Below, one piece after another: positions 18,205-30,661 of a stretch of 64,000 nt of DNA (position 1 is the stretch's first letter; each line of letters starts with the position of its first letter). The notes beneath the pieces were generated by a model. That model ran no database searches, had not been told where the DNA came from, and saw only the letters and a program-made list of their open reading frames with translations. Position numbers and translations under genes: made by a program. This stretch comes from Sinomonas atrocyanea (GTDB lineage: Bacteria > Actinomycetota > Actinomycetes > Actinomycetales > Micrococcaceae), in NCBI RefSeq assembly GCF_030811715.1, contig NZ_JAUSRH010000002.1:62001-126000 (forward strand). The letters are read 5' to 3'.

Positions 18205-18233
18205 AAGCTACGGATCGGAGACGAGATTGTCAA
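18205..18233 (-). promoter_or_regulatory. Candidate promoter of the liv operon
   Basis: On the minus strand TTGACA (18233-18228), a 17-nt spacer, then TAGCTT (18210-18205). The -35 hexamer is consensus and lies entirely within the GntR-type site at 18226-18237, so binding there would block polymerase. Confidence 0.55.
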
Positions 18234-18237
18234 CGAT
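18226..18237. promoter_or_regulatory. GntR (FCD-type) operator copy, liv operon
   Basis: ATTGTCAACGAT matches ATTGT-N2-ACAAT with one mismatch. It overlaps the liv -35 box. The same 12-bp pattern occurs at 19048-19059 and 21343-21354. Confidence 0.5.
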
Positions 18238-19021
18238 TTTGGATGCCGGATGGCGGCGCCTCGGCGGACACCGCGTGGAGCCACTCGATGGTGGCGTCCG
18301 TCATGGGGTGGGCGCACCCGAGCGCGTCCAGATAGGAGCGCACCTCGCGCATCTCCTCCTCGCGCCGCGCCGCATGCCGGCGGGTGCCCTCGAGCAGGCG
18401 CTGGACCAGGGCAGGCCCGCCCGGACCGAGCTCCGCGGCGATCTGGCCGGTGACCCAGTCGGCCGCGCCGACGGCGCCCGCGGCCGTCACCGCCTCGAGG
18501 ATGGTGGCGGCGAGGCCCTTCATGAACACGCTGCGCAGGAGCTTGAGGCCCGCGGCGGCGCCCGGCTCGGGGCCGGCCCCGGTGGCGGGGATGCCCAGCG
18601 CGGCAAGCTGGGGGATGAGCGCGGCCTCGCCGGGGCCGCTGACGAGCAGCGGCGTGGCGATCCGGGCCCGGGGGACAGGCGCGAGTACCGCGACGTCGGC
18701 GAAGCGGACCCCCGCCTCGGCCGCCTGCTGTGCGAGGCGGCGCTTCTCCTCGGGACCAGCCGTGTTGAGGTCGGCGAAGAGCGCGTCCCGCGTCATCGCG
18801 GGCAGCGCCTCGCCCAGGGCCGCGGAGGCCGCCCGGCCGCCGACGAGGCTCAGCACGAGGCCGGCGCCGCGGACGGCGTCGCCCACGCTCGGGGCGAGCA
18901 CGACGCCGGGCGGCGCGGCGGCGGCGCGGGGGTCGGCGGCGGCGACGTGCGCGCCGCGGGCGGCAAGGTCGCTCGCATAGATGGTTCCGGCCTCACCGAG
19001 GCCCAGGACGGCGATGCGCAT
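18230..19021 (-). CDS. NAD(P)-dependent oxidoreductase, 6-phosphogluconate dehydrogenase-like (DUF1932 type)
   Basis: A 263-residue two-domain dehydrogenase of the beta-hydroxyacid family. The Rossmann fold begins MRIAVLGLGEAGTIYASDLA with GxGxxG, and VLSLVGGRAAS and LFADLNTAGPEEKRRLAQ follow as in 6PGDH relatives. The all-helical C-terminal part (LKLLRSVFMKGLAATILEAV) contains the conserved Lys used in catalysis by the family. GGGAGGA precedes the ATG. It diverges from the GntR gene across an 87-bp gap that holds a perfect operator-like palindrome 27 bp from its ATG, so it probably belongs to that regulon. The substrate is unknown; a hydroxy acid intermediate of aromatic or side-chain breakdown is a guess. 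Confidence 0.8.
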   Translation of the reverse strand: MRIAVLGLGEAGTIYASDLAARGAHVAAADPRAAAAPPGVVLAPSVGDAVRGAGLVLSLVGGRAASAALGEALPAMTRDALFADLNTAGPEEKRRLAQQAAEAGVRFADVAVLAPVPRARIATPLLVSGPGEAALIPQLAALGIPATGAGPEPGAAAGLKLLRSVFMKGLAATILEAVTAAGAVGAADWVTGQIAAELGPGGPALVQRLLEGTRRHAARREEEMREVRSYLDALGCAHPMTDATIEWLHAVSAEAPPSGIQNR

Positions 19022-19047
19022 GCGGTCCTCCCGCGATTGGTTCTAAG

Positions 19048-19059
19048 ATTGTAGACAAT
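19048..19059. promoter_or_regulatory. GntR (FCD-type) operator between dehydrogenase and GntR genes
   Basis: ATTGTAGACAAT: perfect 5-bp inverted arms around a 2-bp centre, the usual shape for FCD-subfamily GntR regulators. It lies 26 bp from one divergent ATG and 49 bp from the GntR ATG, consistent with autoregulation. Confidence 0.65.
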
Positions 19060-19108
19060 ATCGCGGCTCCGTCCGGGCCGCGAGGGCTCTCCAGGAAGCG
19101 AGCGGACC

Positions 19109-28527: not shown

Positions 28528-28567
28528 CCCAACCCCCAAGACCCTTCCGAAGAGAAAGAGGTTCACC

Positions 28568-29980
28568 GTGGCACCGAAGAATCTGCAGGAAGTCCTCGAC
28601 GCATCCAAGGGCGCCGTCGACCTGCTGCGCAACTCCCAGATCGGCTCCTACATCTACCCGGTGGTCCCGGCCGACTTCCAGAACTGGATCAAGGAGCAGA
28701 AGGCGTGGCGCGAGACGGCCGTCCTCTACGACCAGTCGCACCACATGGACAACCTGTTCCTCAAGGGCTCGGACGCGATCAAGCTGATCACGTCGACCGC
28801 GATCAACTCCACCGCCAACTTCCCGGTGGACAAGGCCAAGCAGTACGTGCCCACCACGGCCTCGGGCCACGTGATCGGGGACGGCATCCTCTTCCGCGAG
28901 GCCGAGGACGAGTACGTCTACGTGGGCCGGGCCCCCGTGACCAACTGGCTCCTGTACCAGGGCGAGACGGGCGGCTACGCCAACCTCGACATCACGGCCG
29001 ACCGCCGCTCGCCCTCCCGCCCCTACGGGCATGCCGTCACGCGCCAGTACTACCGCTTCCAGATCCAGGGCCCGAAGGCCTGGGCGGTCATCGAGAAGCT
29101 CAACGGCGGCCCGGTGGAGCAGCTGAAGTTCTTCAACATGTCCACCATGACCATCGACGGCACCACGGTCCGCACGCTCCGCCACGGCATGGCCGGCGCC
29201 CCCGGCCTCGAAGTGTGGGGCCCCTACGCGGACCACGACCGCATCATGAACGCGATCATCGAGGCCGGCGCGGAGTTCGGGCTCGTGCCCGTGGGCTCCC
29301 GCGCCTACCCCTCCAACACCCTCGAGTCCGGCTGGATCCCCTCGCCGCTGCCCGCGATCTACACGGGCGAGGCCGAGCGTGGCTACCGCGAGTGGCTCCC
29401 GGCGGACGGCTACGAGGCCACCGGCACGCTCGCCGGCTCGTTCGTCTCGGACAGCATCGAGGACTACTACCTCACGCCGTGGGAGCTGGGCTACGGCTCG
29501 TTCGTGAAGTTCGACCACGACTTCATCGGCAGGGACGCCCTCGAGAAGATCGACCCGGCGACCCAGCGCCGCAAGGTCACCCTCGCCTGGAACGCCGAGG
29601 ACATGACGAAGATCTTCGGCTCCCTCTTCGACGTGGACGGGCCGCAGTACAAGTTCTTCGACCTGCCGCTGGCCAACTACGGCTCCGCCAACTACGACTC
29701 CGTGGTGGACGCCGACGGCAACGTCGTCGGGTTCTCGATGTTCACCGGCTACAGCGCGAACGAGCGCCGCGCGCTCTCGCTCGCCACCGTGGACCCCAAC
29801 GTCCCCGAGGGCGCCGAGATCAAGGTGGTCTGGGGCGAGCCCGACGGCGGGAGCCGGAAGGCCGCCGTCGAGCCCCACGAGCAGATCGAGGTCCGCGCTG
29901 TGGTGAGCCCCGTCCCGTACTCCACCGTGGCCCGCACGGAGTACCACGGCGGCTGGCGCACCAACTACCAGACGGCCTAG
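28568..29980 (+). CDS. ligM: LigM-like THF-dependent vanillate/aryl O-demethylase (copy 3)
   Basis: A 470-residue GcvT-fold O-demethylase and the closest in the window to LigM of Sphingobium: [140 protein letters not shown] and [18 protein letters not shown]. It would demethylate vanillate or 3-O-methylgallate with THF as acceptor. The GTG start follows AAAGAGG. It lies 40 nt after purU in the metF-purU-ligM unit and ends at a strong hairpin. Dicamba-type methoxy compounds are another possible substrate of this family. Confidence 0.88.
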
Positions 29981-29987
29981 GTTGGGA

Positions 29988-30020
29988 ACTCGGCACGGGG
30001 CGCATTGCCCCGTGCCGAGT
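29988..30020 (+). terminator. Perfect 14-bp hairpin terminator after ligM-like copy 3
   Basis: ACTCGGCACGGGGC (29988-30001), loop GCATT, and the exact complement (30007-30020), 8 nt after the TAG. It closes the metF-purU-ligM operon and lies just before the PadR ribosome-binding site, so PadR may be read only at low level from the same promoter. Confidence 0.75.
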
Positions 30021-30040
30021 CCGTGTCGCAAGGAGATTCC

Positions 30041-30661
30041 ATGAGCCTGAGGTTCGCGCTGCTCGCCCTGCTCAGGGTCGGCCCGCTCTCGGGCTATGAC
30101 CTGCAGAAGCAGTTCTCCCTCTCGGTGGGCCACGTGTGGCACGCCCCCGATTCCCAGATCTACCCCGAGCTGCGCAAGATGGAGGCCGAGGGCCTCATCG
30201 AGGGCGAGGAGCAGGCCCGCGGCCAGCGTGCCACGCGGCGCGTCTACCACGTCACCCCGGCAGGGGAGCGGGCGTTCCTCGACTGGATGGGCACCCCGCT
30301 CGAGTACGCGCGGGTCCGCGATCCCGCCCACCTGCGCGCGGCCTACCTCGAGGCGGCCACCCCCGCGGCGGCCCGCGAGTTCTTCCGGGCCCACATCACC
30401 CAGTGGGAGGGCGAGCTGGCCCAGTGGGAGGGCGAGCTCCGCCGCATCGACGCGGTGGCCAACCCCATGCTCGCCCGGCGGCTCGCCGTGACGGAGCCCG
30501 GGGCCCGCGAGCGGACCGTCGCGTTCAAGCGCTTCACGTACGAGGGCCTCGTGGACCGCGCCCGCTCGGAGATCGCCTGGGCGCGGCGCGGCCTCGAGCT
30601 CGTCGAGGGGCTCGAGGCGGCCGACGGCGGGTGGGCCGGCTCGCGCGCCACCGGCGCCTGA
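30041..30661 (+). CDS. PadR family transcriptional regulator
   Basis: A 206-residue regulator. The N-terminal winged helix (LRFALLALLRVGPLSGYDLQ, then HVWHAPDSQIYPELRKMEAEGLIEG, then RRVYHVTPAGERAFLDWMG) is typical of PadR, and the helical Vir_C_2-type C-terminus (90-190) mediates dimerisation. AAGGAG lies at 30030-30035. PadR proteins often respond to phenolic acids. Its place directly after the ligM-like gene suggests sensing of a phenolic substrate or product, though its targets are not evident from sequence. Confidence 0.9.
   Translation: MSLRFALLALLRVGPLSGYDLQKQFSLSVGHVWHAPDSQIYPELRKMEAEGLIEGEEQARGQRATRRVYHVTPAGERAFLDWMGTPLEYARVRDPAHLRAAYLEAATPAAAREFFRAHITQWEGELAQWEGELRRIDAVANPMLARRLAVTEPGARERTVAFKRFTYEGLVDRARSEIAWARRGLELVEGLEAADGGWAGSRATGA

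Follow-up and report, generated by a model that had tools for sequence, protein, structure and literature searches.

A candidate Sinomonas regulon for methoxylated gallic-type acids with a type I extradiol dioxygenase

A 64,000-nucleotide stretch of the genome of the soil actinobacterium Sinomonas atrocyanea (contig NZ_JAUSRH010000002.1, positions 62,001 to 126,000; hereafter the window) carries a gene cluster predicted to act on methoxylated aromatic acids with tetrahydrofolate (THF) as methyl acceptor. Genes in the window were called by a codon-position scan together with family libraries (Pfam, NCBIfam). From left to right, a Liv-type importer and a DUF1932 oxidoreductase on the minus strand are followed by a GntR regulator on the plus strand, the demethylase-like LigM_A on the minus strand, and a co-directed plus-strand run of LigM_B, GalD, an extradiol dioxygenase (EDO), an aldehyde dehydrogenase (ALDH), MetF, PurU, LigM_C and PadR. 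Family scores identify every component that an initial annotation had placed together here (three LigM-like genes, tautomerase, extradiol dioxygenase, ALDH, MetF, PurU, GntR, PadR and the importer). Neighbourhoods were compared in a survey of EDO loci, the top 80 by similarity out of 541 confirmed candidates, so its counts lean to close relatives; counts out of 80 refer to this survey, some of whose loci may belong to the same genomes as the class-wide genome set. The features are as follows.

15774..18164, minus strand: Liv-type importer (permease 15774-16655, ATPases 16661-17371 and 17358-18164; Pfam BPD_transp_2, ABC_tran, BCA_ABC_TP_C)
Inside the open reading frame 13358-15295, further left: importer substrate-binding domain (Pfam Peripla_BP_6)
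18226..18237, no strand: operator-like site ATTGTCAACGAT, one mismatch, upstream of the importer and overlapping the 3′ end of the DUF1932 gene
18230..19021, minus strand: putative NAD(P)-dependent oxidoreductase (Pfam NAD_binding_2 and DUF1932; homologue in 34/80 EDO loci)
19048..19059, no strand: operator palindrome ATTGTAGACAAT between the DUF1932 gene and gntR, one of two exact genomic sites
19109..19819, plus strand: GntR/FCD regulator (Pfam GntR and FCD; homologue in 39/80 EDO loci)
19863..21278, minus strand: LigM_A, predicted THF-dependent vanillate/3-O-methylgallate O-demethylase (NF047885, site columns, tree)
21343..21354, no strand: operator-like site ATTGGTGACAAT, one mismatch, in the ligM_A/ligM_B divergent promoter; same site in locus L061
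21463..22869, plus strand: LigM_B, diverged GcvT-fold demethylase, candidate for syringate (Pfam GCV_T; below the LigM and DesA cut-offs)
22856..24013, plus strand: GalD, 4-oxalomesaconate tautomerase (NF033377; 6p3j match)
24050..25003, plus strand: EDO, type I (VOC) extradiol dioxygenase, proposed gallate dioxygenase (Pfam Glyoxalase/VOC; iron ligand columns; GalB/GalC/GalD neighbours in relatives)
25041..26552, plus strand: ALDH (Pfam Aldedh, PF00171)
26762..27649 (start codon inferred), plus strand: MetF of the 7xg9 kind, proposed methyl-THF oxidase (7xg9 match)
27655..28527 (start codon inferred), plus strand: PurU, formyl-THF deformylase (TIGR00655)
28568..29980, plus strand: LigM_C, predicted THF-dependent vanillate/3-O-methylgallate O-demethylase (NF047885, site columns)
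30005..30661, plus strand: PadR regulator (Pfam PadR; a PadR homologue adjoins LigM_C in five of the six surveyed loci with LigM_C)

The LigM_B and GalD reading frames overlap by 14 bases, and the ligM_A/ligM_B promoter gap measures 184 bases. The layout first described needed correction: LigM_A is divergent from the plus-strand run and likely starts at ATG 21278, not TTG 21353, and the leftmost gene (18230-19021) encodes the NAD_binding_2/DUF1932 oxidoreductase. A genome of the same genus, G744, has the three LigM types oriented as in the window. Sinomonas cellulolyticus and Sinomonas sp. ASV486 encode EDO proteins with 92-93% identity to that of the window; in the latter (locus L062, 5956-10951) a different GntR-LigM_B-MetF-PurU set stands directly before an EDO 93% identical to that of the window, which suggests module exchange.

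The EDO belongs to the VOC (type I) enzymes by Pfam (Glyoxalase/VOC) and by fold, and its fold is not that of LigB (type II). Its iron ligand columns are H155, H217/H218 and E269, and the window EDO shares the four-column pattern HHHE with 100 of 101 relatives. All 101 relatives have Lys199, and 100 have Tyr201. An AlphaFold model (pLDDT 80.5, low at the C-terminus), used for fold matching only, resembles AphC (7q2a) and the RHA1 dioxygenase 3lm4, which have the VOC fold in common with it (TM-score 0.85-0.87 to the model; 34% identity); 3lm4 has the same iron ligand columns but Leu/His in place of Lys199/Tyr201. On one alignment with 3lm4 as sole comparator, Tyr201 appears to replace the usual second-sphere histidine (His200 of HPCD). 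The catechol 2,3-dioxygenase model TIGR03211 (cut-off 320) gives 301 bits for the window EDO, 295 for that of L031 and 338 for the L030 relative.

Ring cleavage of gallate gives 4-oxalomesaconate (OMA) directly, while a protocatechuate route would need a dehydrogenase. A hydratase, an aldolase and a tautomerase without ALDH lie within 5 kb of the EDO in 48/80 loci, against 6/80 with ALDH, and a LigB homologue is near in 1/80; for these reasons the EDO is best read as a putative gallate dioxygenase, perhaps acting also on 3-O-methylgallate, a reading drawn from its gene neighbours only. Partner by partner, the survey loci hold GalD (62/80), GalC (52/80), GalB (50/80) and a LigI homologue (8/80). 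The EDO (E <= 1e-60) occurs in 19 of 394 genomes of the class, the window genome included, and GalD adjoins it in 16 of the other 18. On an Agrobacterium plasmid, genes for PIG-L, EDO, ligK, OMA tautomerase and tannase stand in series; tannase-like genes (28-41% identical) occur in 4/80 loci.

The window GalD scores 467 bits on NF033377 (cut-off 440) and 367 bits to the oxalomesaconate isomerase 6p3j. No hydratase or aldolase of the OMA pathway was found among the window genes scanned; contig C1 carries ligJ, ligK and ligI in a row outside the window, with LigJ at 528 bits to the OMA hydratase 2gwg, LigK at 382 bits (cut-off 304.5) and LigI at 382 bits to 4d8l, a hydrolase of 2-pyrone-4,6-dicarboxylate (PDC). 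PcaGH, the protocatechuate 3,4-dioxygenase subunits, score over cut-off on contig C5; protocatechuate has its own ortho pathway in this genome. A type II ring-cleavage enzyme elsewhere in the genome was considered and rejected: the sole PF02900 match resembles a DOPA dioxygenase (152 bits; cut-off 233), and a LigB protein query gave no match in the genome.

The window and the ligJ locus are tied by a palindrome. Both cluster promoters carry ATTGNNNACAAT, and exact ATTGTNNACAAT occurs twice in the 4.23-Mb genome, once in the DUF1932-gntR gap and once on C1 shortly before ligJ, at a distance of 13 or 25 bases according to which in-frame ATG of two is taken as the start. The survey holds 67 exact sites in 53/80 loci, where 19 control palindromes with matching half-site composition give between 0 and 2; with a slightly looser pattern, the sites lie mostly just upstream of galB, galC, ligM_A, gntR, EDO, ligJ, ligI or a carrier gene. 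In a further test on 12 genomes (11 EDO genomes and G744), nine contained 15 exact sites in all, where the pattern read backwards gave one; each of the nine has at least one site within 5 kb of the EDO, a distance that covers 10 of the 15. A site identical to ATTGTCAACGAT precedes livG in six of ten loci whose livG is more than 60% identical, and one within a single mismatch in eight of ten. We infer that the GntR protein binds the ATTGTNNACAAT palindrome; it is the likely regulator of the operator set, as PadR is of the LigM_C/MetF/PurU module.

The demethylase-like genes are of two sorts. On the NCBIfam LigM model NF047885 (curated cut-off 580) LigM_A scores 898 bits and LigM_C 883, while LigM_B stays under the cut-off at 448; neither its score nor its pocket residues make LigM_B a LigM. 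None reaches the cut-off of 800 on the DesA model NF047633 (618, 483 and 614 for LigM_A, LigM_B and LigM_C), which two sphingomonad plasmid proteins exceed at 850 and 898 bits. Searched with the LigM model, the whole genome yields seven matches: the three window genes, and four partial matches that do not exceed 70.1 bits. Across the order, 28 of 396 genomes carry LigM-type genes (E <= 1e-80).

LigM_A and LigM_C keep the 15 LigM site columns checked except for one Thr/Ser change, and retain Tyr29, Tyr31, Arg122, Tyr247 and Trp256 in LigM numbering. In LigM_B three residues are changed (Y29F, Y31F, R122H) and Tyr247, Glu215 and Trp256 retained. Since Tyr247, Glu215 and Trp256 are kept and Phe29, Phe31 and His122 are new, LigM_B probably still works as a methyltransferase but has a different aryl pocket. 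In an 85-row tree LigM_A and LigM_C fall within a 54-row clade with SYK-6 LigM (support 100/100), LigM_A in a 27-row group (99/99) and LigM_C in a 21-row group (100/100); the 26-row group holding that of LigM_C is weak (81/54). Three sphingomonad plasmid proteins form a separate clade, and the two of them that were scanned are DesA. The LigM_B clade (22 rows, 99/94) takes in Rhodococcus and Amycolatopsis, and by its sequences is a third one, neither LigM nor DesA. Syringate is our best guess for the LigM_B substrate, because no LigM-type gene found passes the DesA cut-off and the genome has no match to VanA_C (PF19112), a domain for which 4 of 14 control genomes gave matches.

MetF scores 300 bits against PDB chain 7xg9 and at most 38 against other chains of methylenetetrahydrofolate reductase (MTHFR). 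It is barely over the Pfam MTHFR cut-off (27.5 against 24) and reaches about 31 bits on NCBIfam models with cut-offs near 300; by these scores it is closer to the LigM-coupled MTHFR type than to the ordinary one. We take 7xg9 to be the SYK-6 enzyme, its listing giving the molecule name only. The SYK-6 MTHFR subfamily prefers oxidation of methyl-THF and has coevolved with LigM, according to a 2026 review (PMC13001107). PurU scores 346-347 bits on TIGR00655 (cut-off 286). For the conversion of methyl-THF to formate by MetF, FolD and PurU, as first suggested, the cluster thus supplies MetF and PurU, and the two FolD domains of the genome lie outside the window. LigM-type, MetF, PurU and FolD genes are co-located on Rhodococcus opacus, Novosphingobium and Sphingobium plasmids; the set on the R. 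opacus plasmid includes a gene of the LigM_B type, and LigM_B, MetF, PurU and FolD genes lie near the EDO in two Amycolatopsis (loci L137 and L140).

These assignments make it probable that growth on methoxylated gallic-type acids is served by a regulon whose upper part is this cluster. LigM_B would move a methyl group of syringate to THF, and LigM_A would demethylate 3-O-methylgallate and vanillate onto THF, the products of these steps being gallate or protocatechuate. LigM_C, MetF, PurU and PadR would form a vanillate/one-carbon module, in which MetF, running in the oxidative direction, would oxidise methyl-THF, FolD would carry the unit on to formyl-THF, and PurU would release formate and THF. 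Protocatechuate would enter the ortho pathway through PcaGH. Gallate would be opened to oxalomesaconate by the type I EDO, after which GalD would tautomerise the product, LigJ hydrate it and LigK yield pyruvate and oxaloacetate. GntR would control both the window locus and the ligJKI locus on C1 through ATTGTNNACAAT. The presence of LigI suggests that some 3-O-methylgallate may be cleaved directly to PDC. The gene identities, the synteny and the distribution of the operator are read directly from the genomes, while each substrate named above is predicted from sequence.

Several observations weigh against this scheme or limit its support. The operator pattern was taken from the window's own sites, so its statistic for the window is not independent. 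In the window alone, one-mismatch matches such as ATTGTCAACGAT do not go beyond chance, 12 of 100 shuffles reaching their count. When a mismatch is tolerated, the genome yields seven sites, hardly more than the four given by the reversed pattern, and a lone site of this kind is therefore little proof. Four of the seven belong to this pathway, and the other three lie at C5:205841, C7:6596 and C13:92861. The exact operator is missing from 27/80 loci and from 3 of the 12 genomes (G744, of the same genus, G321 and G390). GalD is not near the EDO in two of the 18 other class genomes, and Sinomonas cellulolyticus (L061, 8575-10963) has the same cluster but without GalD between LigM_B and EDO. In 7/80 loci, some on short contigs, the EDO has neither a partner group nor a LigM within 5 kb. 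LigB-like genes are present in three of 18 EDO genomes (those of the class except G371) and also in G744. The EDO sits with ALDH and 4-hydroxybenzoate 3-monooxygenase in Thermus oshimai, and with a class III (LigB-type) extradiol dioxygenase and VanB-type genes in Roseomonas, neighbours that suit protocatechuate. By sequence, the PDB chain nearest to the EDO is 9wgj (354 bits), which bears the name catechol 1,2-dioxygenase and did not come up among the fold matches listed; it is also a caveat on the newness of a type I gallate branch. Passing the LigM cut-off alone is no proof of a LigM, since the sphingomonad DesA proteins exceed it too (613 and 635 bits), and LigM_B lacks Arg122. Finally, the ALDH has no set role in the scheme: it falls short of the cut-off in all 25 NCBIfam models listed, and its best NCBIfam and PDB matches are generic.

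The ALDH is central to two alternatives. It could be a vanillin/syringaldehyde dehydrogenase that feeds the LigM enzymes, with the EDO converting mainly 3-O-methylgallate to PDC, LigI as the main route and gallate a minor one. The position of ligI after ligJ and ligK behind an operator site suits this, and PDC formation from 3-O-methylgallate is known in sphingomonads (PMC12314914); but LigI homologues are far rarer than GalD in the survey (8/80 and 62/80), and LigM_A adjoins GalB in many Microbacterium loci, which suggests demethylation before ring cleavage. We regard this arrangement as unlikely. We give slightly less credence to a second one, in which the EDO would 4,5-cleave protocatechuate (formed from vanillate by LigM), the ALDH would oxidise the semialdehyde to 4-carboxy-2-hydroxymuconate/OMA, thus replacing LigC and LigI, and GalD, LigJ and LigK would finish. 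The ALDH follows the EDO directly in the window and in Arthrobacter, Microbacterium and Sinomonas relatives, and a Thermus plasmid carries ALDH, EDO, PIG-L, LigK and 4-hydroxybenzoate 3-monooxygenase, its ALDH scoring best on the HpaE model, though below cut-off (352 against 638). Against this, ALDH is found in only 10/80 loci (flanks up to 10 kb) and the OMA set mostly stands without it (the 48/80 loci above), the genome has PcaGH over cut-off, and a tannase lies beside the EDO in Agrobacterium. That the LigM-like proteins use another methyl or methylenedioxy donor (e.g. lignans) rather than benzoic acids is very improbable: the THF-dependent demethylenases SesA and BrdA are indeed GcvT relatives, BrdA proteins have been annotated as vanillate demethylases (PMC5547118) and the LigM_B pocket is changed, but BrdA of BD7100 is 26.7% identical to LigM (PMC5547118), whereas LigM_A and LigM_C reach 883-898 bits on the LigM model with their site columns kept bar the Thr/Ser change.

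We keep to the gallate scheme, within which the single route from a methoxy-aromatic to ring cleavage claimed in the initial annotation is partly supported. Synteny in relatives, the common operator and the LigM, MetF and PurU assignments speak for it; the dioxygenase is a type I enzyme with usual neighbours that point to gallate, and the hydratase, aldolase and PDC hydrolase lie outside the window. A broader proposal goes further, and taken jointly we consider it evenly balanced between true and false: that in Actinomycetota, some alphaproteobacteria and Thermus gallate is cleaved by a previously unassigned type I (VOC) clade marked by Lys199/Tyr201, which in actinobacteria would be under the ATTGTNNACAAT regulon and in Micrococcaceae/Microbacteriaceae coupled to the LigM_B clade acting on syringate.

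To the right of PadR, on the opposite strand (30679-34937), lie genes for a 6-phospho-3-hexuloisomerase (209 bits, cut-off 160), a 3-hexulose-6-phosphate synthase-like protein (153 bits, under the cut-off of 200), a PfkB kinase, an FAH-family hydrolase and a galactonate-type MFS carrier, with an IclR regulator at 35100-35861; the set at 30679-34937 possibly serves a sugar-acid pathway or formaldehyde fixation. The genes of 30679-35861 were rejected as cluster members, homologues of the isomerase and the synthase being found in 1/80 EDO loci, that of another Sinomonas. Elsewhere in the window, a LacI-family gene (9772-10818) contains, on the opposite strand, an ARAGORN tRNA-Arg call (10647-10743) that may be false, and a papain-family (C1) cysteine peptidase domain (38243-39022) is near a Kelch-repeat protein (36162-37757), both kinds of protein being, to our knowledge, uncommon in actinobacteria.

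The closest known systems share parts of this arrangement. Sphingobium SYK-6 and Novosphingobium DSM 12444 (DesA, LigM, MetF; DesB, LigAB, DesZ; LigI/J/K/U) have in common with it THF-dependent LigM demethylation, a dedicated MetF, the OMA lower pathway and LigI; here ring cleavage would be type I, not type II, LigM_B would stand for DesA, and a GntR-type regulator for DesR (MarR). Pseudomonas putida KT2440 (GalA, GalB, GalC, GalD) likewise uses an OMA tautomerase, hydratase and aldolase, and relatives of the window carry galBCD by the dioxygenase; its GalA is classed with the LigB (type II) superfamily, under which AromaDeg places gallate dioxygenases (PMC4250580), while the window enzyme is VOC. 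KT2440 is described as unable to grow on syringate or 3-O-methylgallate (PMC9867520). The syringate system of Pseudomonas sp. NGC7 (VanA1B1, MgaABCD, GalBCD, VanR2) resembles the window in its GntR-type repressor over the upper operon and its GalD/B/C end, and differs in VanAB demethylation giving formaldehyde, LigAB-like MgaAB and the operator GGGATCCC (PMC12314914). Rhodococcus opacus plasmid pRop44186_a brings together two LigM-type genes, MetF, PurU, FolD, a PIG-L protein and LigK aldolase, but has a class III (LigB-type) extradiol dioxygenase in place of the EDO and a MetF of another subgroup. SesA (Sinomonas sp. no. 22) and BrdA (Rhodococcus, Arthrobacter) share GcvT-like, THF-dependent aryl-ether chemistry; unlike LigM they act on methylenedioxy substrates, and BrdA is about 27% identical to LigM (PMC5547118).

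That THF-dependent demethylation in an actinobacterium would be notable is accordingly weaker than first claimed, since LigM-type genes had been predicted in actinobacteria (PMC9296663) and demethylenases reported (PMC5547118). Such aryl-ether chemistry is already published for actinobacteria, even for Sinomonas, and what is new is the proposed type I gallate branch with its regulon. No type I gallate dioxygenase is named in the titles or abstract openings among the literature matches listed, a coverage that mostly leaves out subscription journals, and a 2025 survey of syringate pathways scored only desB/ligAB/galA for the gallate step and mgaAB/desZ-type genes (PMC12314914). If the EDO is a gallate dioxygenase, actinobacteria that use it would escape surveys that look for type II enzymes. 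The cluster also offers a Gram-positive O-demethylation set that should yield formate rather than formaldehyde, and the 12-bp operator may be used to find further genes of the pathway.

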